From contig NZ_NOXU01000015.1 of the NCBI RefSeq assembly GCF_002251795.1, positions 1-64,000 of the forward strand: DNA of 64,000 bases, read 5' to 3'. The notes under the pieces are model-generated. The model did no database searches and was not told the origin of the DNA. It was given only the letters and a program-made list of their open reading frames with translations. Made by a program: the position numbers and the translations under genes. The DNA is from Niveispirillum lacus (lineage in GTDB: Bacteria; Pseudomonadota; Alphaproteobacteria; Azospirillales; Azospirillaceae). Of the stretch, positions 11,126-44,468 are shown piece after piece (the first letter of the stretch is position 1; every line of letters starts with the position of its first letter).

Positions 11126-12343
11126 TCACATCTGCCTCGCACGGGATAACAGTCCGATGGCAGTCAGCGACAATACCAGCATGGCGGACACCAATGCTAC
11201 CAGCCCGCCCCAGCCCAGTGACGTCCAGACAACACCGCCCACCACCCCAATCAAACTGGATCCCATATAATAGGAAAACAGATACAGCGATGACGACTGG
11301 GCCTTGCCACTGGTGGGCGCCAGGGCCCCCACCCAGCCGCTGGCGATGGAATGGGCACCGAAAAAGCCAAATGTCATCAGGCCAATGCCAGGAACGACAG
11401 CGTAGAGGCTATCGGCGACCGTCAAGCCCACGCCAGCCGCCATTACCAGGACCGCCCCTGCCATTACCCGTGAACGTCCCCACCGCGCTGTCAACTGTCC
11501 GATGGAAGAGGACGAGCCCATGCCCAGCAAATAGGCGCCGAAAATCAGCCCGACCACGGACTGCGGCAGGTCGAAAGGCGGCAGAAGGAGGCGGAACCCC
11601 ATGTAATTGAAGATCGTAATGAACCCGCCCATCAGCAGGAAACCGAGCATAAACAACAGCCGCAGGTCAGGCTGCGCCAGCGGAGCCGCCAGGGCGCGCA
11701 GCAGTGACCCCGGCCGGGACGGGCGCCGGACAAAACCCACCGATACCGGCAGGAACCGCCACACTGCCGCCGCCGATGCCAGCCCCAGTAATCCGATGCC
11801 GATGGTTGCCATCTGCCATGGCAGAAAATCAACCAACACGCCCGTCACCAATCGCCCGGCCATCCCGCCCATGGCCGAGCCGGCGATATAAAGCCCCATG
11901 GCGCGATCCAGGGCCGCTGGGTCCATTTCTTCCCCCAGATAGGCCATGGCGACTGCTGGCAATCCGGCCAGTGTGACGCCAAACAGGGCACGCGCCAGCA
12001 AAAGCCCATGCCAGGACGGGATGATCGCCGTCACCAGGGTCAGCAGCGCCGAAAGGGCCAGCGAAGCCACCATCACAGGCTTGCGACCGAACAGATCGGC
12101 CAGAGCACCGGAGAGGAGCAGGGAGACCGACAGGAAACCGGTAGCAAGGGAGAGAGCCAGAGCGGATTCAGCCGGGGCCACCTTGAACGTGCTGGCCAAC
12201 AAAGGCAGCAGCGGCTGCACGTGATAAAGAAGAGCAAAAGTTGCAAAACCCGCCGCGAACAACGCCAGGGAGACCCGTCGAAATGCTGGGGTTCCGGTCT
12301 GGATGCCCGCCAGGGCGGGCGATGACGGTGGGCTTACCGTCAT
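11126..12343 (-). CDS. MFS transporter (YnfM-like arabinose-efflux type)
   Basis: This 405-aa protein has twelve predicted membrane segments and the major facilitator loop 2-3 motif GALADLFGRKPVM. It resembles the YnfM/CynX-like drug:H+ antiporter group (ALLYHVQPLLPLLASTFKVAPAE is a typical TM1-2). Its start overlaps the purT stop in a TGATG arrangement, and its stop is one base from the AEC gene, so three genes are translationally coupled. The substrate is not evident; a purine-related or toxic metabolite is one possibility given purT. Confidence 0.87.
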   Translation of the reverse strand: MTVSPPSSPALAGIQTGTPAFRRVSLALFAAGFATFALLYHVQPLLPLLASTFKVAPAESALALSLATGFLSVSLLLSGALADLFGRKPVMVASLALSALLTLVTAIIPSWHGLLLARALFGVTLAGLPAVAMAYLGEEMDPAALDRAMGLYIAGSAMGGMAGRLVTGVLVDFLPWQMATIGIGLLGLASAAAVWRFLPVSVGFVRRPSRPGSLLRALAAPLAQPDLRLLFMLGFLLMGGFITIFNYMGFRLLLPPFDLPQSVVGLIFGAYLLGMGSSSSIGQLTARWGRSRVMAGAVLVMAAGVGLTVADSLYAVVPGIGLMTFGFFGAHSIASGWVGALAPTSGKAQSSSLYLFSYYMGSSLIGVVGGVVWTSLGWGGLVALVSAMLVLSLTAIGLLSRARQM

Positions 12344-13515
12344 CAGGTATAATCGATGCGGATACGGGATGCAGCCTCGCGGGCAGTGGCACGGGCCTCA
12401 TCCGTATCGGTGCCGCGTGCCAGGGTCACGCCCATCCGTCGATAGGGGCGGGTGGTCGGCTTGCCGAAAAGCCGCACATCCACTGCCTGATCTGGACGCC
12501 CGGTAAACAAAGCCATGGCCAGACCGGAAAAGCCAAACTCCTTGGCCTCGCGGTCAGCCAGAATCACTGCACTCGCCGATGGGCCATAAAGTTCCACGGC
12601 CGGGATGGGCAAACCCAAAACAGCACGGGCATGCAGGTCAAATTCTGAGAGGTTTTGCGACGTCAGCGTGACCATGCCGGTATCATGGGGCCGCGGGGAC
12701 AGTTCGGAAAAGATGACCTCATCCTTGGTCACAAAAAACTCCACGCCGAAAATGCCGTGGCCGCCCAGGTCATTGACCACCTTGGCGGCCATGTCTTGTG
12801 CATCCTGCAACAGGTCTGGACGCATGCCCATCGGCTGCCAGCTTTCCTGATAGTCACCACGTTCCTGCCGGTGGCCGATTGGCGGGCAGAAAACGATGCC
12901 ATCCTTGGTGCGGACGGTCAGCAAGGTGATCTCATACTCGAAGGGGATGAATTCCTCGACAATCACCTTAGCCCGGTCGCCGCGCATGTTGGCCACAGCG
13001 TAAGTCCAGGCGGCTTCAAGCGCGCCCTCCTCCTTTACAGTGCTCTGGCCCTTGCCAGACGATGACATTACCGGTTTGATCACGCAGGGCAGGCCGGTGT
13101 GGGCGATGGCCGCCTTCACCTCGTCAAAACTTTCGGCATAGCGGTATCTGCTGGTGCGCAGACCCAGGTCGACTGCCGCCAGTTCACGGATGCGGTCGCG
13201 GTTCATGGTCATCTGGGTGGCCCGAGCCGACGGCACCACGGTGAAGCCTTCCGCTTCCAGTTCGGCCAGCATTTCAGTGCGGATGGCCTCGACTTCCGGG
13301 ACAATGAAGTCGGGCTTGTGCTTTTCCACAGCGGCGCGCAACTTCTCCCCGTCCAACATGGGGAACACTTCACGCCCATCGGCCACCTGCATGGCGGGAG
13401 CGTGGTCATAAGCATCGCAGGCGATGACCTGGGCACCCAGTCGCTTGGCGGAAATGACAAATTCGCGCCCCAACTCACCAGAGCCGAGCAGAAGGATCTT
13501 CGCGGTGAAGGGCAT
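12343..13515 (-). CDS. purT: Formate-dependent phosphoribosylglycinamide formyltransferase (GAR transformylase 2)
   Basis: This 390-aa ATP-grasp enzyme makes formyl-GAR from GAR, formate and ATP in purine synthesis. It starts TAKILLLGSGELGREFVISA, carries the ATP-grasp glycine-rich loop VMSSSGKGQS, and has the metal/ATP site FGVEFFVTKDEVIFSELSPRPHDTGMVT. Length equals E. coli PurT (392 aa). The ATG at 13515 has an AAGGTGG site upstream; the longer in-frame extension (50 residues) is arginine-rich and not conserved. It heads a three-gene operon with two transporters. Confidence 0.95.
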   Translation of the reverse strand: MPFTAKILLLGSGELGREFVISAKRLGAQVIACDAYDHAPAMQVADGREVFPMLDGEKLRAAVEKHKPDFIVPEVEAIRTEMLAELEAEGFTVVPSARATQMTMNRDRIRELAAVDLGLRTSRYRYAESFDEVKAAIAHTGLPCVIKPVMSSSGKGQSTVKEEGALEAAWTYAVANMRGDRAKVIVEEFIPFEYEITLLTVRTKDGIVFCPPIGHRQERGDYQESWQPMGMRPDLLQDAQDMAAKVVNDLGGHGIFGVEFFVTKDEVIFSELSPRPHDTGMVTLTSQNLSEFDLHARAVLGLPIPAVELYGPSASAVILADREAKEFGFSGLAMALFTGRPDQAVDVRLFGKPTTRPYRRMGVTLARGTDTDEARATAREAASRIRIDYT

Positions 13516-33260: not shown

Positions 33261-33301
33261 TTAATTCGATCTTTCCAAGGCCCATACTGAAATCGAATTA
33301 A
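33261..33301. repeat. Inverted repeat at the end of the TPR-GT9 gene
   Basis: A perfect 10-bp inverted repeat (33261-33270 with 33292-33301) with 21 bases between the arms spans the stop codon. It could act as an AT-rich hairpin terminator or protect the mRNA end. Confidence 0.4.
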
Positions 33302-35186
33302 CCAATTTGGCGATTACGGGCTGCCAGTTACCCCATTCAGTTTGGCGAAACAGCCGCAACCCAGGGTACCAGGGATTATCCTCCCGTGATCGCAGCCAGC
33401 GCCAGCAACCATCGTATCGGGACAATACCCAGGTCGGCCGCCCGAGGGCTGCCGACAGATGGATGACAGCCGTATCCACGCCGATCACCAGGTCCAACTC
33501 GGCAGCCAGCGCTGCTGTATCGGCAAAGTCAGAAAGGTCGCTGGTCCAATCCGCAATGGTCAGCAAGGACTGCGCCTGTTGGGCTGCTTTTGGCCCTTTC
33601 TGCAGGCTGACCAGACTGATCCCGGCTATGCCCATCAAGCCGTCTAGCTGCGGCAAGGCAAGGCTTCGGCGGCGATCAGTGGCTGCGGCCCTTGGATCAT
33701 CCGCACGTCCATCACCAGCCCACACTAACCCTACCTTCAGACCGGGCAGGGCAAGAAGGCGTTCCCGCCAGGGCTGCCGCCGATCCGCCGGCACGCGCAA
33801 ATAGGGGATCTGCGCCGGGATGGCAGCAAGCCTGTCGGTGTCCAGCCGCAACGGCAGCCCGAGCAATGGACAGCGGCATGTAAAACCGGCAGGGATTGGC
33901 TCCCCCAATCGCGTCACACTGGTGGCCGCTGGCAAACTGTCACGGAATAACCGGACCAAGGCCGGCTGCACCTGCAGGGCGACCTCAATCCCCATATCCA
34001 GCAGGCGCGGAACGTAGCGTATGAACTGCAGACTATCGCCATGGCCTTGTTCGGCATGGACCAACAGACGCCCACCGGGCGGCTGGGCGACACCATCCCA
34101 AACCGGCAGGGCCTGTAACGCTGGGTTCAGGCCAAATCCCGGCATGTGCCAACGCCACTCATACTCACGCCACCCCTCAGCCAGATCACCGGCCCGCAGC
34201 CTCGCCTGCGCCCTCTGCCAGTGACCGACGGCGAGTGCGGGGGACAAGGTCAGAACACGGCGATAACAGGCCTCTGCGCCCGCATCATCACCCAGGTCGC
34301 CCCACACATTACCAAGATTGAGCAAGGCTGGGATGTTGTCAGGCTCGGCATCAAGCACAGCCTGCAACGACTGCACCGCCTCTGCCAGCAAGCCCAGCCC
34401 ATGCTGGGCAACGGCAAGTGCTATACCCGCGCGGGCCGGGGCACCTGGTTGCCTGATTACAGTGAGGGCAGCATCGCGCGCTTCCTCAAACCGACCCAGG
34501 ATGGCCAGAGTGTCAGATCTTCCCAGCAGCAGATCACTGTCGGTCGGCGCGCGCTGCAACCCCGCTTCAAAGGCCAGTAGCGCCTCTTGATGCTTCTCCC
34601 GCCGCAGAAGTGCTTGTCCCAACCGGTACGAGATGGGACCTCGCTCCGGCGCCAGAAGATGTGCTTCCCGCAGGTGCTCGACCGCATCAGGTCGCTCCAA
34701 ACCATCGGCACCCGCATGCCGATTATATAATGTCGCGGCCAGATTATTCTTCGCCGCCGGGTGCTGTGGCACCAGCGACAGGACCTCGCGCAGGGTTTTC
34801 TCGGCCTCCGATTCCCGGCCCAGCGCTGCCAGGATCGCGCCACTTTCGGCCAGCGCCTCCGCGCGACGGACAGGAATGGCGGCAAACAGGTCCGCTGCCT
34901 GTGCCAGCGACTCCAGGGCGGCGATGTTATCGCCGGTCTGTCGCAGGGCAATGCCCAGATTGAGCAGCCACTCACCAACCCCGGGTTTGAGCCGGATGGC
35001 GGTGCGCAGTGACTTCACCGCAGCTCCTGGCTTCTTTTGGCCAAGGGTTGCCATGCCCAGTAAATAGTGAACATCCGCAAGACCGGGGGCCGAGACCAGG
35101 ATCTCACGGTAAAGAGCCTCCGCCCCCGCCAGGTCGCCAGCCTGATGCGACAAGACGGCCCGGTCGATCAGGGCATTGATTGTCAT
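33261..35186 (-). CDS. TPR protein with C-terminal GT9-like (heptosyltransferase-fold) domain
   Basis: This 641-aa protein has about eight or nine tetratricopeptide repeats over residues 1-330 (for example AGAEALYREILVSAPGLADV, NNLAATLYNRHAG, LLNLGNVWGDLGDDAGAEA). A C-terminal region resembling GT9 glycosyltransferases follows: LKVGLVWAGDG, SLQKGPKAA and DLVIGVDTAVIHLSAALGRPTW. The DTAVIHL motif is intact. Such fusions are frequent near flagellin in Azospirillaceae and are candidates for flagellin O-glycosylation, but this is inferred. It is coupled to an upstream lipoprotein gene with one base between stop and start. Confidence 0.82.
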   Translation of the reverse strand: MTINALIDRAVLSHQAGDLAGAEALYREILVSAPGLADVHYLLGMATLGQKKPGAAVKSLRTAIRLKPGVGEWLLNLGIALRQTGDNIAALESLAQAADLFAAIPVRRAEALAESGAILAALGRESEAEKTLREVLSLVPQHPAAKNNLAATLYNRHAGADGLERPDAVEHLREAHLLAPERGPISYRLGQALLRREKHQEALLAFEAGLQRAPTDSDLLLGRSDTLAILGRFEEARDAALTVIRQPGAPARAGIALAVAQHGLGLLAEAVQSLQAVLDAEPDNIPALLNLGNVWGDLGDDAGAEACYRRVLTLSPALAVGHWQRAQARLRAGDLAEGWREYEWRWHMPGFGLNPALQALPVWDGVAQPPGGRLLVHAEQGHGDSLQFIRYVPRLLDMGIEVALQVQPALVRLFRDSLPAATSVTRLGEPIPAGFTCRCPLLGLPLRLDTDRLAAIPAQIPYLRVPADRRQPWRERLLALPGLKVGLVWAGDGRADDPRAAATDRRRSLALPQLDGLMGIAGISLVSLQKGPKAAQQAQSLLTIADWTSDLSDFADTAALAAELDLVIGVDTAVIHLSAALGRPTWVLSRYDGCWRWLRSREDNPWYPGLRLFRQTEWGNWQPVIAKLVNSISVWALERSN

Positions 35187-35187
35187 A

Positions 35188-35460
35188 TCAGATACCTGTC
35201 TTCGGCGAGGGGGCGGCCTTAGCCGGGACGGCGGGCTTGGCCGCTCCGGCCGGCGGCGGAGCGGGCACAGGTACGGGGGGTGGAACGGGTGCCGGCGTCG
35301 GGTTGACGGTTGGTACAGGCGGCGGCTCCGCCGGTGATGGCGGGCGCGACGGCACATACATATAATTGTCGTTCACCTGCCCCTCATGGCTGGCGCAGGC
35401 ACCAAGCCCCGCAGCAAAACCTAGAACAAGCAGCGGGAACACAATCCGATTTCTAGCCAC
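35188..35460 (-). CDS. Proline-rich small lipoprotein
   Basis: This 90-aa protein has a lipoprotein signal (FPLLVLGFAAGLGAC, lipid-modified Cys22) followed by a short region with NDNYMYVPSR and a long proline/alanine-rich tail typical of spacers that cross the peptidoglycan. The stop lies one base before the TPR-GT9 start, so they are probably one transcript. No family is recognised. Confidence 0.7.
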   Translation of the reverse strand: MARNRIVFPLLVLGFAAGLGACASHEGQVNDNYMYVPSRPPSPAEPPPVPTVNPTPAPVPPPVPVPAPPPAGAAKPAVPAKAAPSPKTGI

Positions 35461-35566: not shown

Positions 35567-36256
35567 TCAGCGGGAGATTTTGTCCAGAAAACCCTCGTCC
35601 TGAACGACAATGTAGCCGTTGCGGTAGATGATAGCGCCTGACGCCTGAAAGCTCTTCAGCGTCTTGTTCACAATCTCCCGCGACACCCCTAACATATTGG
35701 CTAGGTCTTCCTGGCTGACAAAGGCTGCGATCCGGGTACCTGTGTCAGTCTGTCGCCCATAATTCTGCGCCAGCATCAAAATCCGTTTGGCCAGACGGCG
35801 TGTGACATTCAGGAACACGGTGTCTTCGATGATCGAACTGGTCCAGCGCACCCGTTCGCATAAAACGCTCATCAACCGGATACACAGATCGGCACGCTGC
35901 TCTAAAAAGGGCATGAAGTCCCGCCGATCAATACGGAGAAGCTCTGTGGGCTCTTGGGCGACAACGGTTGCCGTGCGTTCACCACCATCCAGCATGGCGA
36001 TTTCGCCAAAGACGGCACCGGTGTCCATGATGTTCAACAGCATGACTTTGGCGTCCTGCGACTCGGTCTGTACCGCGACACGGCCGCGCAGGATCACGTA
36101 AAGGCTGTCTCCGGGATCACCCTTGGCGAAAATGCGTTCCTCGGCCACCGCCCGCCGCACCTTGGCAAAGTCAAGGACGGCCTGCATCTCCGCGTCATTC
36201 AACACGCCGAACAAACGGTTACGGCGAAGGAGGCCAGGCTCTATAAGGGATACCAA
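35567..36256 (-). CDS. Crp/Fnr family transcriptional regulator
   Basis: The 229-aa protein has an N-terminal cyclic-nucleotide-binding domain with the phosphate-binding signature FGEIAMLDGGERTAT (residues 83-97; Glu85, Arg94, Thr95, Ala96) and a C-terminal helix-turn-helix (SQEDLANMLGVSREIVNKTL, 181-200). The recognition helix keeps the RE pair (Arg193, Glu194) that reads TGTGA in CRP; the third contact is Lys198 instead of Arg. No Fnr-type Cys cluster is visible, so cyclic nucleotide sensing is likely. A TTG at 36256 with GGGAGA upstream is the best start and gives normal length; the longer in-frame extension is unlike the family. It is downstream of tfuA in the RiPP-like cluster. Confidence 0.88.
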   Translation of the reverse strand: MVSLIEPGLLRRNRLFGVLNDAEMQAVLDFAKVRRAVAEERIFAKGDPGDSLYVILRGRVAVQTESQDAKVMLLNIMDTGAVFGEIAMLDGGERTATVVAQEPTELLRIDRRDFMPFLEQRADLCIRLMSVLCERVRWTSSIIEDTVFLNVTRRLAKRILMLAQNYGRQTDTGTRIAAFVSQEDLANMLGVSREIVNKTLKSFQASGAIIYRNGYIVVQDEGFLDKISR

Positions 36257-36338: not shown

Positions 36339-37088
36339 TCAAACGGGCGTTCGCAGAACGGGACGCGCCACCTGCTCCCACATGGTCGTATGTTCGAAAG
36401 CGTAGAGCGGCCGGACGCCCAAGGTCCCGGATGTGATCTTATCACGCAGTCGGGTCAGCAGGGTAACAGCATCCTCGCGTTTCTGATCCGCCCGCCCGAC
36501 TGGCAGCCACTCACGGAACGCCTCAATCTCGGCGGGGTCGACCTCGCCCTCCTCCCCTGCCTCGCGCAGGATGCGGCCATAGTTGCGCTCACGATAGCTG
36601 AGGTCCTTGGCAACCTCCTCAAGCCGACGACGGGAAGATATCGACAGGATGCCGGCGGCAAAGGCGTCGGAGAGTGTCCGGCGGATATTCACCATGGCCT
36701 CGGAAAGGCATGGATAACCCAGTTCCGCCGGCCCATGGGTGACTGCCACCTCATCATCATCTTCCAGCCGGCCATCGGCGTAGGCATCAAAGATCGCGCC
36801 CACACCCTCCATCCCGAATGTCGCCAATTCAGCCGCACGTAATGCTCCCATGCTGGCAGCACCAAGGACCGGTATGCCCATGGACATCGCGAAAAGGATT
36901 TCCTTGTGCCAGACGGCGGGCACATTTTCGAAATAACCGTCGATGATGGCGATGGCGGCTGGGCGGTCCATGACCGCCCGCAGCACATCACCTTGGGCTA
37001 CCGGCGGGCGATAGTCGGCATTAAGAACGCGGGACGCGGTCGCAACCGGCAGGGTCGGCCCCAGGAAAACAATGACAGGGTTGTTCAT
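36339..37088 (-). CDS. TfuA-like protein, partner of YcaO
   Basis: This 249-aa protein carries the TfuA core at about residues 48-170: AIIDGYFENVPAVWHKEIL, GIPVLGAASMGALRAAEL and FGMEGVGAIFDAYADGRLEDDDEV. TfuA, first found in the trifolitoxin locus, works with YcaO; TfuA-YcaO pairs install thioamides in peptides or in methyl-coenzyme M reductase, TfuA probably delivering sulfide. It starts 30 bp after the ycaO stop on the same strand. The C-terminal 80 residues are helical and acidic. With ycaO and the small gene upstream it makes a minimal thioamide-type RiPP operon. Confidence 0.92.
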   Translation of the reverse strand: MNNPVIVFLGPTLPVATASRVLNADYRPPVAQGDVLRAVMDRPAAIAIIDGYFENVPAVWHKEILFAMSMGIPVLGAASMGALRAAELATFGMEGVGAIFDAYADGRLEDDDEVAVTHGPAELGYPCLSEAMVNIRRTLSDAFAAGILSISSRRRLEEVAKDLSYRERNYGRILREAGEEGEVDPAEIEAFREWLPVGRADQKREDAVTLLTRLRDKITSGTLGVRPLYAFEHTTMWEQVARPVLRTPV

Positions 37089-37118
37089 GACAGTCCCTTT
37101 CAGCCATATCTGACACGG

Positions 37119-38357
37119 TCAAACCAAACCCGCGACCTGTCGGGCACGGGCCCCAAGCGCGTAGTTGGTGGTATGGTCGACCCCTTCCAACCCGGGCACA
37201 ACGACCCGGACCACCGGAATGCCGATCTCCGCCCGGGTCAGATCGACCACAACAACATCTTCGATCCCGACCTGTGCCAGACGCTGGCGCAGTTCGACCA
37301 GGTCGCCACGCAACGACTGACCGCGCCACCCACGGATCTGATTGAAGTCGCGCACCGTCGCGCCCAGCCGGATATGGTTAAGCCACAGCGCCTGCTGTTC
37401 CTCTGCCAGGAAATGGTCATATTCGTCCCGGCGCATGTCATCGCGCGCGCCAGAGATGAAGGTCAATCGGCTCTGCGCCGCCTCGGTCAATGCACGGGAC
37501 AAGGCGATCTCTGGCACCAGGTGGCTTCCGTAGCCCGTTGCCGGACGCACCGTCGTACCGGGTCCGGCATCAGCCTGGACAATACGGGCCAGGAATGTCG
37601 GAACGCCGACATCGGACGTCATGTCCCAGACACCAACGGCCACACCAGCACGGGCAAACCGGGCCAGAAGGGCGCGGCAGGTCGGATCGGCAATGGTTTC
37701 CAGATCAATGCGCGTTTCGTCCCGCGCCTCTTCCGGCAGCAGGTTCCACAGGGTACGCGCATCCCGTTCAATGACCTCGGAAAGTCCATGAATGACGGCT
37801 TCTACCCAGTGATTGCCGGAGGCCAGCCCATTAGAGGTGGCCTGGAAACAGCCATGACCGGTGGGTAGCGGCAAGGTATAGTTGGTGTGGACCATCTCGT
37901 ACGGTATCCACAGGCTGTTCCCATCCCGCAGATTGGTGCCCTCCGCCCACAACATCTGGTGATGCGGGCTGTAAACACTATCCATGGTCGCCGGCAGAAG
38001 GTCGGGATCGACCACCGGCAACGCGTAGCGCAGATCCTCATAGGAACCGATACGCAGGGACAGGTGCGTACACCGCTCTGCGTGCCAGCTTTCGATGGAT
38101 TCCATCACGGCCGATGCCTTGGCAGCGGCCAGGGTCACCCCCTTACCCTGGGAAACCGCCAGCGCACGCGAATTCGGCCGGTTGACCATCACAACCGGAA
38201 TGCCGATCGTATCCAAGCCGGTGACATTGGCGACACGGGTGATGCCAAACAGGGGAAACAGGGGCTTGACCCGGGCCAGCGTTTCCTCGGCAGAGACCAA
38301 CCGGCGCCATTGCGGCATCTCAAGATTGTCCCATTCGGTCAAACGGACCTGATCCAT
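37119..38357 (-). CDS. YcaO-type ATP-dependent cyclodehydratase/thioamide synthetase
   Basis: This 412-aa YcaO protein has the nucleotide-binding motifs SQGKG (69-73), MESIESWHAE (Glu86, Glu89) and EVIERDA (Glu194, Glu197, Arg198, Asp199). YcaO enzymes activate backbone amides with ATP; those paired with TfuA form thioamides rather than azolines. The C-terminus (ALGARARQVAGLV) lacks the proline-rich PxPxP tail of azoline-forming YcaOs, in line with a thioamide role. The ATG at 38357 has AGGGGAA upstream. It lies between the precursor gene and tfuA, all on the minus strand. No E1-like or ocin-ThiF partner is present. Confidence 0.93.
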   Translation of the reverse strand: MDQVRLTEWDNLEMPQWRRLVSAEETLARVKPLFPLFGITRVANVTGLDTIGIPVVMVNRPNSRALAVSQGKGVTLAAAKASAVMESIESWHAERCTHLSLRIGSYEDLRYALPVVDPDLLPATMDSVYSPHHQMLWAEGTNLRDGNSLWIPYEMVHTNYTLPLPTGHGCFQATSNGLASGNHWVEAVIHGLSEVIERDARTLWNLLPEEARDETRIDLETIADPTCRALLARFARAGVAVGVWDMTSDVGVPTFLARIVQADAGPGTTVRPATGYGSHLVPEIALSRALTEAAQSRLTFISGARDDMRRDEYDHFLAEEQQALWLNHIRLGATVRDFNQIRGWRGQSLRGDLVELRQRLAQVGIEDVVVVDLTRAEIGIPVVRVVVPGLEGVDHTTNYALGARARQVAGLV

Positions 38358-38408
38358 TGCCGTTCCCCTATCACGCGGTTCGCTTTATCAAGGTTCAAGA
38401 TGTCTGGG

Positions 38409-38437
38409 GCCGGTCCGGGGCGTTGCCACGGACCGGC
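38409..38437 (-). terminator. Hairpin between precursor gene and ycaO
   Basis: A perfect 9-bp GC-rich stem (38409-38417 with 38429-38437) with an 11-nt loop lies 11 bases after the precursor stop. It has no T-run, so it looks like an attenuator or mRNA-stabilising hairpin that would keep precursor mRNA in excess over enzyme mRNA. Confidence 0.55.
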
Positions 38438-38448
38438 GTCCCATGGCG

Positions 38449-38628
38449 TTACATCTTCGCGGAGAAGATTTCAGCGCTGGAGGCAAAGATTTCGGCGCTG
38501 GCGCCGACATCCATCGAACGCGGCGCTTGAACGCGGCTCACGCTCTGGTTTTGGGCTTCTTCTGCGACAACAACCGCGCCGTTCGGGGCAACTCGATACA
38601 GGCGGCCATCTGCACCACGGGTCAGCAT
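38449..38628 (-). CDS. Putative RiPP precursor peptide (59 aa) of the YcaO-TfuA cluster
   Basis: This small gene starts at the ATG at 38628 with an excellent AGGAGGAG site (38634-38641 region) and stops with TAA at 38449. The 59-residue product has a leader-like part (MLTRGADGRLYRVAPNG at 1-17, then an acidic/Gln-rich stretch) and a core-like C-terminus with a tandem SAEIF motif at residues 44-48 and 51-55, ending SAKM. There are no Cys residues and only three Met (1, 39, 59). Position, size, ribosome site and repeats fit a precursor for backbone modification by the adjacent YcaO and TfuA. I know of no family that it matches. No exporter or protease gene adjoins it. Confidence 0.78.
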   Translation of the reverse strand: MLTRGADGRLYRVAPNGAVVVAEEAQNQSVSRVQAPRSMDVGASAEIFASSAEIFSAKM

Positions 38629-38731: not shown

Positions 38732-38747
38732 TGTGAAGTGCTTCACA
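38732..38747. promoter_or_regulatory. Crp-type operator upstream of the precursor gene
   Basis: TGTGAAGTGCTTCACA is a palindrome with 7-bp arms and the exact TGTGA-N6-TCACA Crp pattern. It lies between the precursor gene (centre 111 bp from its ATG) and the divergent RHH gene. The cluster encodes a Crp-family regulator with the RE recognition residues, which makes it a probable target site. Confidence 0.75.
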
Positions 38748-38849: not shown

Positions 38850-39188
38850 ATGAACGCTCCGCAATCCAAGAATGACATCACCGTATATGAGCCGCACGAC
38901 CTGGAGGTTGACGGCCAGCTTATCAGCCACAATGTCTGGGTCGATGGACACCGGACAAGCGTACGGCTGGAAGCGGTGATGTGGCAGGCGCTGCATGAGA
39001 TCGCTGAACGTGAAGCGCTGAGCATCCACCAGGTCATCACCATTGTATCGCGCCGCCAGCATCAGAATGCATCGCTGACGGCCACAATCCGGGCATTCCT
39101 GGTCGCCTATTACCGGGCTGTGTCCCGCGGCGTGTCGACCTTACTGCTGAGGGATGCGCCCGACCTGCCCGCAGATATGAGGATCTGA
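38850..39188 (+). CDS. Ribbon-helix-helix (RHH_4) domain protein
   Basis: This 112-aa protein has the RHH_4 pattern: a strand and helix in DGHRTSVRLEAVMWQALHEI, then REALSIHQVITIVSRR and LTATIRAFLVAYYRAV. RHH_4 proteins are small DNA-binding regulators common in alphaproteobacteria. It is divergent from the RiPP precursor gene with 221 bp between the starts, containing the Crp-type operator, so it may co-regulate the cluster. The N-terminal 30 residues are extended and acidic. Confidence 0.82.
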   Translation: MNAPQSKNDITVYEPHDLEVDGQLISHNVWVDGHRTSVRLEAVMWQALHEIAEREALSIHQVITIVSRRQHQNASLTATIRAFLVAYYRAVSRGVSTLLLRDAPDLPADMRI

Positions 39189-39246: not shown

Positions 39247-42174
39247 TTATCGGATTGACAGCAGGTTAAGGTTCGAGCGTGCCTGGGCGGCGATGTCGGT
39301 CAGTTCCGCAAGGCTGGGCAGTTGCCGGCCCAACAGTCTGAAACCCCGCTCATCCGCCAGCACAGCCGCAGAGGCCCTTTCCTGTTGGGCCTGCTGAAGT
39401 TGTCCGGTCAGGGCAAAGGCAACCGCCCGGCATTGTCTGGCCTTGGCGATATGAAGGGCCGCCCCCCGCGCAATGGCGATGCCCAAACCCTGGTCGATAT
39501 CGGCAAGGCCAGCGATCCCGCGTCCCATGTAAGACAATGCCAGACCCCGCCGGGCCAGATTGACGGCATCGAATAACGGCGCTCCCGTTGACCGGGACAA
39601 TGACAGGCTTTCCGAACTATAGGCCAATACATCGCCAAAACGGCGCTGCCGCAGCCGGATTTCCGCAATATCCGCCCGCACAAATACACGATTGAAGGGG
39701 AACCGGTCGCCATCCGCCAGCCGAAGGGCATGTTGGATCAGCGGCTCAGCCTCATGCAATTGCCCCAGCAACGCTCGACAACGCGCCTTCTTGATACTGA
39801 TCATCATGTCGACATTCAGCATCGTATAGCGACCGGCGACATGCTGGTCCCTTCCACTGACACCGGCGGCAATCTCAAGCAGGCGCAGCGCATTCTCGGG
39901 ATCGTCATTTTCGATATGGCATGAGGCTGCAATGATCAACAGTTCGGGGTGGGCCGACATTTCACCGCCGGAATAGCTGATGGCGGAACCCGCCAGCAGC
40001 AGCGCCTGCGCCAGACTGCCATAGACCCATTCATAATTGATCTGCTGCACCAGACCGACCATTGCCCGGGACTGATCGCCCGCCTGCCGCGCCAAGGACA
40101 CGGCCCGGTCAAGTTCGGTCATTGCCCTATCACCCATGCCGGCCGGCATTGCCGCCTTGGCCAGTGCAATACGCAGATCAATGCCTGCTTCAAGACTGTC
40201 CTGGTTGACGGGCAGGTTCTCATTCGCCTCGACAGCGATGGAGAGTAGCGAAACCGCTTCTGCCGCCAGCGACCGGTTCAACGCCTCTCGCCCAGCAGCA
40301 ACCCCTGCGCGGACAGCCATGGTCCAAAGCGCGCCTGCGGCCGCATGGCGTGCCTGCGCCGCCAGCCGCCCTGACAGTTCCGTGAACGCCTCCTGATCCA
40401 GAAGTTCGGCCAGGCGCCCATGGATCTGCCGACGATCCCGACGTGTGATACAGGCGTAAACCGCTTCATGCAGCAAAGCATGATGGAAGGAATATTCCTG
40501 CCGCGGCAATAACCGGGTTTCGTCAATCAGGCCCAGGCGCGCAAGCTCGGGAAGATACCGCCCGGCATCCTCTGCCCCGATCAGACGGGACAGGAGCGCG
40601 ACATCAAAGGTCGGACCGGCCACTGCTGCAAAGCGCAGAACCCGCCTGGCCGCCTCCCCCAACATATCGATACGTACCGATAACAGGGCCTGAACCGAGT
40701 CCGGCAGCGGATAGGCTGGCATTTCGCCCGGTCGCATGTTGCCGACATCACCCTGCAACGTCCCGTTCATCATCAGGACACGGATACATTCGACCAGAAA
40801 AAACGGATTGCCGCGCGCACGCCGCGACAGGTCCAGCTTGATTTTATCCAGCCCCGGATAACGGCCCAGCCAATGGTCCAGCAGGCTGGTTGTGTCGGAG
40901 ATGCTAAGGGGACCAAGCGTGTGCTGTCCTAACCGGCGATGGGTCGCAATGGTGGCATTCAGCCCCTCTTCCCGGCTGGTCAGCACCAGCAGAAGGCGGG
41001 TGCTCTCCGGCAGATCCAGCAGGGACAACGCAGTCGCCTGGACCGCAGTATCCGCCCAATGCATATCTTCGACCAGGAGGAGCAGTGTCCGCCGCTCCGC
41101 CACGGACCGGACAAGCATGGCCATCGCAGAGGCGGCAAGCGACAAGATGGCCGATGTTCCGCGATCCTGATTATCGGTCAATGTCGGCAGCAGAATCCGC
41201 GCCAAGGCATCAGCCTGTTCCGGCTGTGCCCCGGCCGCGCGCAGCATTGCCGACAAACCTTCCGGTGTGCGGGGCAGCGGTCCGTCCAGTAACGCCGCAA
41301 CCAATTGGTGCAGCGGGCCGACTGCCCCCACTGGTTCCACCGGGGGTACCTGCAACTCCAGAACCCGAATGCCCGTCTTGCGCGCAGAGGCTGCCAGCGA
41401 TCGCACCAGCCTGGTCTTGCCGAGGCCAGGTGCCGCCTGGACAAGGTGGGCAGAGAAACCACCATTTCCTGTTGCCATACCCTCAAGCGTCGATAGCAGG
41501 TAGGACCGGATGTTTTCGCGGCCCACCATCGGCAACACCTCTTCGTCCTGTCGCCGTCTGGACCGCACCGATGTTAGCTGGTGGGTCTGAAGCGGTTCCT
41601 CCCCCGCCAGCACAACTAAAGACGATTCCTCCGTTTCCACCCAGTCCGCTGCCAGACGGGCTGTGGCATCGGTCATGACCGCACGGTTCGGGGCGGCCAT
41701 CTGCTGTAGTTTGGCCGCGATATGGATCGTGGCGCCGGTCGCGGGGTTGCCGGTCTGGGCACCGCTATCATGGTCCCAGAGCACTTCGCCGGACGCCATG
41801 CCGATCCGCACGGCCCGGCCACTGCGCGCCACCTCGCGCAAGATGCCGTCTGCGGCGAAACAGGCGCGAACCGCGTGGTTTTCCAATGCCACAGGGGCCC
41901 CGAAAACCGCATAGACACCATCGCCCAGTGTCTGACAGATGGTGCCACCAAAGGCCGCAACATGACGGCGCATGATATCAATCAGACCCGATAGCTGGTC
42001 GTAGGCGTCTTCGGGATCCTGCGGAATCACCATGTAGCTTGAGTTGATGATGTCGCAGAAAAAGGCTGTGACCATGCGGCGGTCAGCACGTACCAACCCC
42101 GGACGTGAGCCCAAGGGGAAGGCATGAATGCCATCGTGTGCGTCGGTTAACCGACTTTCACCCGCCAGTGACAT
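39247..42174 (-). CDS. Adenylate/guanylate-cyclase-like domain with AAA ATPase and TPR regions
   Basis: The protein of about 975 aa has an N-terminal class III cyclase homology domain (residues about 33-200), a P-loop ATPase domain (PMVGRE, then APGLGKT at 248-254, LLLLVEDMHWAD Walker B) and a long helical, TPR-like C-terminal half. The two metal aspartates are present (Asp41 in FFCDIINSS, Asp85 in TLGDGVYAVFG). The usual base-reading Lys is Gln81, and the transition-state Asn-Arg pair in NxAARL reads HIAAKL (His151, Lys155), so activity is in doubt. It lies beside the RiPP-like cluster and Crp-type regulator. The ATG at 42174 is used; a GTG at 42216 is an alternative. Confidence 0.85.
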   Translation of the reverse strand: MSLAGESRLTDAHDGIHAFPLGSRPGLVRADRRMVTAFFCDIINSSYMVIPQDPEDAYDQLSGLIDIMRRHVAAFGGTICQTLGDGVYAVFGAPVALENHAVRACFAADGILREVARSGRAVRIGMASGEVLWDHDSGAQTGNPATGATIHIAAKLQQMAAPNRAVMTDATARLAADWVETEESSLVVLAGEEPLQTHQLTSVRSRRRQDEEVLPMVGRENIRSYLLSTLEGMATGNGGFSAHLVQAAPGLGKTRLVRSLAASARKTGIRVLELQVPPVEPVGAVGPLHQLVAALLDGPLPRTPEGLSAMLRAAGAQPEQADALARILLPTLTDNQDRGTSAILSLAASAMAMLVRSVAERRTLLLLVEDMHWADTAVQATALSLLDLPESTRLLLVLTSREEGLNATIATHRRLGQHTLGPLSISDTTSLLDHWLGRYPGLDKIKLDLSRRARGNPFFLVECIRVLMMNGTLQGDVGNMRPGEMPAYPLPDSVQALLSVRIDMLGEAARRVLRFAAVAGPTFDVALLSRLIGAEDAGRYLPELARLGLIDETRLLPRQEYSFHHALLHEAVYACITRRDRRQIHGRLAELLDQEAFTELSGRLAAQARHAAAGALWTMAVRAGVAAGREALNRSLAAEAVSLLSIAVEANENLPVNQDSLEAGIDLRIALAKAAMPAGMGDRAMTELDRAVSLARQAGDQSRAMVGLVQQINYEWVYGSLAQALLLAGSAISYSGGEMSAHPELLIIAASCHIENDDPENALRLLEIAAGVSGRDQHVAGRYTMLNVDMMISIKKARCRALLGQLHEAEPLIQHALRLADGDRFPFNRVFVRADIAEIRLRQRRFGDVLAYSSESLSLSRSTGAPLFDAVNLARRGLALSYMGRGIAGLADIDQGLGIAIARGAALHIAKARQCRAVAFALTGQLQQAQQERASAAVLADERGFRLLGRQLPSLAELTDIAAQARSNLNLLSIR

Positions 42175-42314
42175 GTTCGTTGCCCGCCGAAGCCAATCGA
42201 TGGTCTGGAAACACACCGCACGCTGAAATCCAGAGCCCCCATACTCTTGATTTCAGCCATCAGGCATACGATAGCATCACGTTGGACATAAGAAAACTGG
42301 TCTAGGATAAAATG

Positions 42315-44339
42315 TCAGCCATGCAATGGTAATTTTCTGTCGAGAAGGCCCGCCACTTCGGCAATCCCGGAAAGAACACCTGCGGAATGGGAAAACACAC
42401 GCATTGAGGCGAACCACGGGCGGACCGCCGTACCCAAGGTTGACCAGTCCGTCGCCCCAGTGATGCGCCAGACAGGGGTACCGATCGCGCCGGCAAACTC
42501 ACCGACAGCCGTCGGCGCCGTAATCACCAGGTCCAGTTCCGCGATCAGACCGGCAAGCCCTTCCAGATCGTCTTTCAGATCAAGTCCCGGCATCACGTGA
42601 ACCGGACGGCCGGCTGCCGCCTCCAACGCTGCAATCTCTTCCGGCTGTGCGCCATACTGAAGATTGATCACCTGGATACCCGGATGGGCAGCAATCGGCG
42701 CCCAGTCCGGCGCCGTGGCATAGCTGGACTGGCGACGCGTAGTGATCATCCGTGACCGCCAGCAGACACCAACCTTCAGGCCCCATGGCAATCCATCCAG
42801 CCAAGCCCGCGCGCGGGCACTGGCACCTTTGTCAGGGACCAGATAAGCGACACCGGGATACTGGGCAAGCGTGGAGCGAAGAAGTGGTACGGCACCTCCG
42901 GCCGGGATATGTGCATCCATGTCGGGACACTCCGCCGCATCACTGTTGCCCGGCGGCAGCCGTTGTATACGCACCGTTGCCTTTGGAAAACTGCGCGTAA
43001 ACAGGCCCAGTAAACGCGGGTCGCATTCAATGACCACGGCACCCGGAGGCCCGCCCGCCATTTCAATCATCTCGTTGTAAAGACTGGCGAACATCAGTTC
43101 GTCGCCCAGTCCCTGCTCCCGCCAGATCAGCAGCCGCCCCCGCGGTAAGGGCGTGCCTTGCCATTGGGGTATGGCGAACTGGCGGTCGGGCAGCGCATCA
43201 CCAGCCGCAAAACGCCAAGCATAGTCTTTCCAACCCTCCGCCAGATCACCATCACCCAGTCGCAACAAAGCACGGCAAACCCGAGATCGCGCCAACTCCG
43301 GATTGATATCCAGGGCGCGATCAAAGGCCTGACGCGCCCGGCGCCGGTCCCCCTGCGCCAACCTGCACAGTCCCAGATTACCCCAGACCTCCGCGGAGGT
43401 CGGGGCCAAGGTAAGGGCATGAGACAACACCGTGTCAGCCTCTGCCAACTGGCCGGATAGTTCCAGGGCCGCACCCAAATTGGTCAGCCCCTGAATATTG
43501 TCTGGATCAAGCCGCAACCCCTGCTGATAGGCAGCAATCGCAGCCTCCAGTTTGTCCATTTCCTGAAGGGCCACCCCGAGGAAGATATGAGCATCGGCGC
43601 GATCAGGCGCAGCAGCGACCGCAGCAAGGTGGTATTGCAGTCCCTCGCCCAGGCGACCGCGTTCCACCAGGACATTCCCCAGGTTTGACAAAGTCTCCGC
43701 ATGTCCGGGCCGGGCCGCGAGCGCATGGCGATAGGCGTCCTCTGCTCCCGCCAGTTCTCCCCGCGTGGCCAAAACCGCTCCCAGATTGTTCCAGGCCTGG
43801 GCGTGGTCCGGCTGCTGCGCCAGCAGGGCGCGATAGCTGGCCGCCGCTTCATCCAGATCGCCGAGGGCACGCCGGCTATTGGCTAAGTTGAACATGGCAC
43901 CGGCATGCCCTGGCCTGACAGCCAGTGACTTGACATAGGCATCAGCAGCCTGACGATGGGCACCCATGGCCGCCAGGGCGTTGCCAAGGTTGAACAGATA
44001 GGGCGCATGATCCGGACGTAGCCGCAATGCCTTGCGGTGCGCCTCTACCGCCGGCGCCGGGTTACCCTGGGCACGCAAGGCACTGCCCAGATTGTCATGA
44101 AAGTCAGGGGCAGACGGTTGCCGACGCACGGCGTCGGTCAGCAGTCGGACGGCTTCGGCCGGGTCACCTTGCTGCAGACAGGCAACCCCAAGCAAATTAA
44201 GCAGTTGAGCGTTTCGCGGATCGGTCAGCAGCAAGGCACGATAGGCAGCGGCCGCACCAGCCACATCACCGGCTTGGTGCAGCCGCACCGCCTGCTCCGC
44301 CGTCAGAACCGCCCGGCCCGAACCCATCCCTACCCCCAT
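42315..44339 (-). CDS. TPR protein with degenerate GT9-like C-terminal domain
   Basis: This protein of about 674 aa has about ten tetratricopeptide repeats (LTAEQAVRLHQAGDVAGAAAAY, FNLANSRRALGDLDEAAASYRALLA, NNLGAVLATRGELAGAEDAY and others) over residues 10-370. A GT9-like C-terminal region (LLIWREQGLGDELMFASLY, LKVGVCWRSR, INLQYG) follows. The usual DTxVAHLAGA motif reads APTAVGEFAGA, missing the Asp and His, so it may not be catalytic. It lies divergently upstream of flaF with 129 bp between starts. The start is uncertain: ATG codons at 44360, 44339 and 44327 are in frame; 44339 has AGGGATAGG upstream. Confidence 0.78.
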   Translation of the reverse strand: MGVGMGSGRAVLTAEQAVRLHQAGDVAGAAAAYRALLLTDPRNAQLLNLLGVACLQQGDPAEAVRLLTDAVRRQPSAPDFHDNLGSALRAQGNPAPAVEAHRKALRLRPDHAPYLFNLGNALAAMGAHRQAADAYVKSLAVRPGHAGAMFNLANSRRALGDLDEAAASYRALLAQQPDHAQAWNNLGAVLATRGELAGAEDAYRHALAARPGHAETLSNLGNVLVERGRLGEGLQYHLAAVAAAPDRADAHIFLGVALQEMDKLEAAIAAYQQGLRLDPDNIQGLTNLGAALELSGQLAEADTVLSHALTLAPTSAEVWGNLGLCRLAQGDRRRARQAFDRALDINPELARSRVCRALLRLGDGDLAEGWKDYAWRFAAGDALPDRQFAIPQWQGTPLPRGRLLIWREQGLGDELMFASLYNEMIEMAGGPPGAVVIECDPRLLGLFTRSFPKATVRIQRLPPGNSDAAECPDMDAHIPAGGAVPLLRSTLAQYPGVAYLVPDKGASARARAWLDGLPWGLKVGVCWRSRMITTRRQSSYATAPDWAPIAAHPGIQVINLQYGAQPEEIAALEAAAGRPVHVMPGLDLKDDLEGLAGLIAELDLVITAPTAVGEFAGAIGTPVWRITGATDWSTLGTAVRPWFASMRVFSHSAGVLSGIAEVAGLLDRKLPLHG

Positions 44340-44468
44340 CCTATCCCTATGCACCAACATCGGGTTTCCGCCCTGCGCCGCATCCTAGGGCATTATCCTT
44401 GTCGGGCGTACCCCGATGTGAAATAATCCCACCCATGGTTTTACCGTTCAAAGGGCACGGCGACCGTT

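Follow-up and report, generated by a model that had tools for sequence, protein, structure and literature searches.

We analysed a 64,000-nucleotide (nt) stretch of the Niveispirillum lacus genome (Azospirillaceae; contig NZ_NOXU01000015.1, positions 1 to 64,000; hereafter the window), in which a small gene, a ycaO gene and a tfuA gene lie in this order on the minus strand. We consider it likely that they belong to a vertically kept, Crp-controlled operon for a leader–core ribosomally synthesized and post-translationally modified peptide (RiPP), with YcaO and TfuA making thioamides. The genes, the precursor family with its core repeats, the operator, the purifying selection and the co-inheritance are read directly from sequence. 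The precursor gene (38449-38628, 59 codons; ATG at 38628, stop at 38449), preceded by AGGAGGAG, is followed after 91 nt by ycaO (37119-38357, 412 codons) and after a further 30 nt by tfuA (36339-37088, 249 codons), and these coordinates confirm the gene order given in an earlier note on this DNA. The locus has three features of a YcaO–TfuA RiPP cluster, namely an intact YcaO, an adjacent TfuA and a leader–core precursor alongside, and the YcaO is the only one in the host genome.

The earlier note had taken the 59-residue open reading frame (ORF), whose sequence it did not recognise, for a candidate precursor. Indeed, the protein belongs to none of the Pfam or NCBIfam families (NCBIfam returned a chance-level match only), and public Azospirillum records annotate the precursor as a hypothetical protein (AZL_RS27420 and AZOLI_RS24880). 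The substitution pattern, proposed in that note as a check, is that of a coding gene: five ungapped close pairs gave ratios of nonsynonymous to synonymous substitution (dN/dS, Nei-Gojobori) of 0.03, 0.10, 0.10, 0.12 and 0, which are rough because several pairs approach saturation at synonymous sites, and the pair with a ratio of 0 carried 13 synonymous changes and zero others. In a gapped comparison with the more distant L093 precursor, the proportions of nonsynonymous and synonymous differences (pN and pS) were 0.23 and 0.57, with 18.5 nonsynonymous changes in the last 22 codons as against 3 in the first 22. Purifying selection and the presence of the ORF in 58 of 82 family genomes make it more than a chance reading frame, and on these sequence grounds we hold that the 59-codon gene is a genuine precursor gene.

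The precursors consist of a fixed leader and a variable, often repeated core. Seven residues do not vary among 23 aligned precursors: R4, A6, D7, G8, R9, L10 and D40, numbered as in the window precursor. The first six of these belong to the near-invariant leader motif RGADGRLY (residues 4-11; 38596-38619, minus strand). The putative core region, which the earlier note had not resolved into repeats, extends from Asp40 to Met59 (38452-38511, minus strand) and reads DVGASAEIFASSAEIFSAKM from the conserved Asp on, with two units marked by SAEIF at residues 44-48 and 51-55. In the two-copy precursors of Niveispirillum the units co-vary (AEIF, AEIY, ADLH, ADLY). The cores of Azospirillum contain one unit (DHEAARHAITPGL and similar), and those of Aerophototrophica and Oleisolibacter read DSASGANWFEPPFPPSFP and DLTAGADFVNPRFP, respectively. 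Metagenome-assembled genomes (MAGs) of Kiloniellales have four to nine core units, such as DHASARVF[VI][DE]PG four times in L101, D[HY].A[GSA]RMVIEA four times in L114 and D..A[GA]R[ML]A[VI][ED]A nine times in L106, and a Rhizobium MAG (L166) carries AGRYYVTPG seven times behind the leader VRGPDGLLYAV.

Among the non-alphaproteobacterial loci, in a minority of which a precursor was worked out, RGADG.LY leaders near YcaO–TfuA were seen only in Fodinibius roseus (L131), an Anaerolineae MAG (L132), whose precursor has FASSW repeats, and an Acidimicrobiales MAG (L157), where the leader lies ~7 kb from YcaO–TfuA; a looser motif in L160 was judged unrelated. These occurrences suggest that the leader type reaches past Alphaproteobacteria. 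Separately, many Azospirillum genomes carry a second YcaO–TfuA locus with a YcaO mostly 38-44% identical to the present one (L192:9884-11159 and L193:7162-8419, both minus strand). The ORFs adjoining it begin with ALELVKRMATDLEFRDRLN, a start that we take to be Nif11-like, and continue with 25 exact copies of ASSAA[AW]FGQP or 12 of SPAASAAGMAGFAAAGA, so that they apparently encode very highly repeated precursors.

The distribution of the cassette was followed in a family set of 82 Azospirillaceae genomes, with YcaO counted at E ≤ 1e-40 and the precursor by a profile made from 23 of the precursors; about 34 of the 58 hits were therefore found independently of the profile. Each of these 58 genomes gave exactly one precursor match, and all of them are among the 60 genomes with YcaO; in the other two (G011 and G081) the best YcaO is only 47-50% identical. 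Within the genus-level group of the host (11 genomes, including Aerophototrophica and Oleisolibacter), YcaO with a small ORF ahead of it is found in 11/11, and the host YcaO is 79-95% identical to that of named Niveispirillum relatives; a second large genus (g3, Azospirillum) is positive in 44 of 45 genomes. A comparison of coordinates placed precursor and YcaO at most 500 nt apart in 56 of these 58, so that the small gene does accompany homologous YcaO genes, another check named in the earlier note. In the two split genomes (G021 and G039) it is 89 kb from YcaO or on a separate contig, the cyclase and ribbon-helix-helix genes described below staying with the precursor and the Crp gene with YcaO–TfuA. 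At class level the precursor search matched 8 of 385 genomes. Four of these belong to the family; the other four matches were weak (E 3e-5 to 6e-4, one in a 67-aa ORF) and were taken as chance. Since YcaO at E ≤ 1e-60 occurred in only 3 of 398 genomes of a phylum sample, the host's own included, the YcaO family is narrow. Vertical retention of the operon in Azospirillaceae is the best reading of this pattern.

The enzymes point to thioamide formation. YcaO (PF02624, 291 bits) has intact ATP motifs, as the earlier note had described; they read SQGKG, ME.IE and NGLASGN...EVIERDA, and the GKG, E..E, NGLASGN and ERD residues, which serve as ATP/Mg motifs, are invariant in 14 aligned YcaOs; its C-terminus, LGARARQVAGLV, lacks a proline-rich tail, as that note had stated. 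In a PDB search with the YcaO family, MJ1094 (6pe3) was the closest solved structure (E 3e-51), before TruD and LynD. The nearest curated models are those of McrA thioamidation, for YcaO (TIGR03266, 242.4 bits, cut-off 365) as for TfuA (NF033432, 222 bits, cut-off 235.2; PF07812, 159 bits), both scores lying below cut-off. When neighbouring genes were mapped with hidden Markov models (HMMs), TfuA was found beside YcaO in 35/35 Azospirillaceae precursor loci and was present in 5/5 Kiloniellales/Rhizobium loci. Furthermore, Cys, Ser and Thr are absent from 9/9 core units of L106 and 3/4 of L114, and azoline formation therefore cannot be what the family does in general. Thioamidation of the precursor backbone is our best inference, in line with the preference of the earlier note for thioamides over azolines.

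The three genes proposed there as a compact operon stand, but its limits were drawn too narrowly: a Crp gene, a cyclase/STAND gene (signal transduction ATPase with numerous domains), a ribbon-helix-helix gene and an operator belong to the same conserved unit, and this regulatory half had been overlooked. The palindrome TGTGAAGTGCTTCACA (38732-38747, no strand) reads as TGTGA-N6-TCACA, the Crp-type consensus, and was the sole window match at ≤2 mismatches (shuffles: mean 0.13, with at least one match in 12/100). We scored 57 rows, some of them from a genome already present, with mononucleotide shuffles as the control. Each of the 45 distinct alphaproteobacterial precursor loci has a site that agrees with 11 or more of the 14 defined bases and lies 101-196 nt before the leader motif, compared with 5/950 shuffles reaching this score, and three non-alphaproteobacterial loci scored 8-10, which is background. 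A perfect site is present in the Rhizobium MAG too, and a site is found at each half of the split genomes. The operator is nearly private to the cassette: a search of the 11 genus genomes for TGTGAASNNSTTCACA gave 14 sites, 10 of them at the cassette (reversed-pattern control, 1), the G004 cassette has a variant operator, and GTGAAGNNCTTCAC has one further exact match in the host genome, within an ORF. Three of the four sites away from the cassette are a second exact TGTGAASNNSTTCACA in L183, L188 and L191 (~position 1500), each after a gene that by eye resembles an acyl-CoA ligase gene, possibly a further target of the cassette Crp.

The Crp-family regulator gene (35567-36256, minus strand; cNMP_binding and HTH_Crp_2; start likely TTG by comparison) was present in all Azospirillaceae (35/35) and Kiloniellales/Rhizobium (5/5) precursor loci of the HMM map. 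The roles of the residues in the cyclic nucleotide pocket are known from E. coli CRP; here the pocket G, E, R and C-helix S are kept in 15/15 proteins, the S/T position likewise in 15/15, and the C-helix T position reads T in 9 and V in 6. Among the DNA-contact equivalents, R180 and E181 are kept in 15/15, and K replaces R185. Because the pocket and DNA-contact residues are kept, the cassette Crp would be the natural binder of the operator. It might be CgrA, which binds cGMP and regulates cysts in Rhodospirillum centenum; the main texts on cysts that were searched contain neither YcaO nor TfuA. The palindrome might instead serve the divergent ribbon-helix-helix protein (RHH_4 by Pfam; 38850-39188, plus strand), whose gene is conserved in 34/34 covered Azospirillaceae precursor loci. 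We prefer Crp, as the palindrome has the form of a Crp-type site and also occurs in the Kiloniellales and Rhizobium MAG loci, where the ribbon-helix-helix gene was found in 0/5 (one with just 1.3 kb upstream).

Beyond the ribbon-helix-helix gene lies a gene of 989 codons (39247-42216, minus strand) for a class III cyclase joined to a STAND/AAA ATPase and a solenoid resembling tetratricopeptide repeats (TPR). Of the Azospirillaceae loci, 33 have the precursor next to YcaO and upstream DNA of 4 kb or more, and 31 of these carry the gene upstream; so do 4/4 Kiloniellales/Rhizobium loci with enough DNA. An AlphaFold2 model (26 sequences; mean predicted local distance difference test score 86.9) places the cyclase at ~30-205, the ATPase at ~220-600 and a helical solenoid from there to the C-terminus; Foldseek returned the STAND-TPR structure 6mfv on top, followed by the class III cyclases 1wc1 and 1ybt. 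The Walker Lys and Asp are kept in 26/26 sequences and both metal Asp in 24/26. The best PDB sequence match of the cyclase is 1ybt (Rv1900c), an enzyme that is active with a non-canonical site. The window protein could be an atypical cyclase, or else a sensor that binds nucleotides.

TPR protein genes flank the cassette on the minus strand, at 33261-35357, with a weak glycosyltransferase-9 match, and at 42315-44360. By tblastn, such genes lie beside the cassette on one or both sides in the Niveispirillum regions G003, G010 and G004, and were not found in the Azospirillum regions examined. A RimO-like gene, named by reading its sequence, lies ~2 kb downstream of the Crp gene in L081 (G022; ~11485-12826), and five of the examined regions have its cluster close to the cassette.

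From these data we infer the following course. YcaO would recognise the precursor via the leader motif RGADGRLY, sulfur would be passed through TfuA, and YcaO would convert at least one core backbone amide to a thioamide. The modified core would comprise the SAEIF units in the window and the D-x-x-A-[GSA]-R units elsewhere, and the leader would be removed by a peptidase encoded outside the cassette. The cassette Crp with a cyclic nucleotide would switch transcription at the TGTGA-N6-TCACA site in front of the precursor gene. This nucleotide is likely made or sensed by the cyclase/STAND/TPR protein encoded next door, and the ribbon-helix-helix protein would act as a second regulator.

Several observations weigh against this reading. 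We recognised neither a protease nor an exporter among the genes of the conserved block, and L130 has YcaO, TfuA and Crp with no precursor found. L096 and L115 lack the cyclase gene upstream, and in A. lipoferum 4B (L197) this gene is shortened, with an IS5 transposase gene standing between it and the ribbon-helix-helix gene. Where canonical class III cyclases use Lys, Asn and Arg, 24, 22 and 21 of the 26 sequences have Gln, His and Lys, respectively, and cyclase activity is therefore uncertain. In addition, other cellular Crp proteins could use the operator.

As for the function of the product, it is quite possible, at somewhat less than even chances, that an exported antagonist or metal-binding peptide is made and that the cyclase, Crp and ribbon-helix-helix proteins are a mere pathway switch. 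The known TfuA–YcaO RiPPs, all actinobacterial as of 2021, are bioactive secondary metabolites (PMC8120280, in excerpt), the core differs between genera, and an operator with 10 of its 14 exact sites at the cassette is equally compatible with a plain pathway-specific switch. However, single-copy presence in 11/11 and 44/45 genomes of two genus-level groups, including the plant-associated Azospirillum, is unlike most antagonist clusters, and we recognised no gene for export or immunity within the conserved block. This steady presence points, if indirectly, to a physiological role for the putatively thioamidated peptide. With the second-messenger wiring also in mind we lean towards such a role, and the peptide probably has a steady job in the cell. 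A more specific proposal, which we regard as doubtful, is that the thioamidated core is a signal sensed by the TPR/STAND part, upon which the cyclase raises the cyclic nucleotide and Crp activates the cassette, giving a self-amplifying circuit with genus-specific cores (SAEIF, SADLY, DHEAAR...TPG) as dialects; our literature search returned no paper describing such a peptide-to-second-messenger circuit.

It is improbable that the RiPP is made with azolines or an amidine in place of the thioamide. YcaO enzymes catalyse these reactions elsewhere (PMC6511847, in excerpt), the window core contains Ser, and YcaO reaches 148.5 bits with the SagD-type model TIGR03604. This score is nevertheless below the cut-off of 219.25, and a Pfam scan of eight window proteins revealed no E1-like partner among the cassette genes, as the earlier note had also found; TfuA adjoins YcaO in 35/35 Azospirillaceae precursor loci, Cys, Ser and Thr are absent from all nine L106 core units, and the closest relatives form thioamides. 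We likewise give little credence to the regulatory genes being old neighbours functionally unconnected with the RiPP: Azospirillaceae share synteny anyway and the cyclase gene is missing in 2/33 loci, but in the Kiloniellales and Rhizobium MAGs, too, the cassette is flanked by cyclase and Crp genes, and the Crp-type site stands before the precursor in 45/45 loci and at both split-genome halves. Least of all do we expect that YcaO–TfuA targets a large cellular protein, like McrA in methanogens or uL16 in E. coli, with the small gene as a bystander: the closest curated models are for McrA and conservation across the family is very high, but 58 genomes have inherited the small gene together with YcaO, 56 of them with the two adjacent, the precursor leader is fixed and the core fast-changing and repeated, the McrA and S12/uL16-type models (the latter NF040716, 36 bits, cut-off 700) stay below cut-off, and TfuA is not encoded near uL16-type YcaO (PMC13063428, in excerpt).

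The probable Crp-controlled thioamide RiPP operon would provide a tractable family with culturable hosts, a single copy per genome, a defined leader, one to nine natural core repeats, some cores free of Cys, Ser and Thr, and a built-in switch, so that the role of thioamide RiPPs in the organisms that make them becomes directly testable. In our literature search, RGADG and thioamid occurred together in no paper, and Azospirillum and TfuA in none among the matches listed. The nearest relatives of both enzymes are the methanogen pair for McrA-glycine thioamidation (MJ1094/6pe3; TIGR03266 and NF033432), yet both fall below cut-off, and that pair acts on a large enzyme (PMC5589413, in excerpt), in contrast to the small leader–core peptide here. 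Parts of the 989-aa protein share their fold with STAND-TPR 6mfv and the class III cyclases 1wc1 and 1ybt, but its active-site positions are mostly Q, H and K, not the canonical K, N and R. The TfuA-related clusters of Malit et al. 2021 likewise have adjacent YcaO–TfuA in Proteobacteria with predicted precursors; the main text of that paper (PMC8120280) contains no 'Azospirill', 'Niveispirillum' or 'repeat', and the present clusters may be in its supplementary files. The thiovarsolin cluster (var) of Streptomyces varsoviensis likewise combines YcaO, TfuA and a leader with one to several imperfect core repeats, and it also encodes heme oxygenase, ATP-grasp ligase, amidinotransferase and major facilitator superfamily genes (PMC6511847, in excerpt), none of which was found in the block of two Azospirillum records or among the eight window proteins scanned. 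Compared with var, the operon described here has a different leader and core, and it includes Crp, its site and the cyclase/STAND gene in a unit that is kept across genera.

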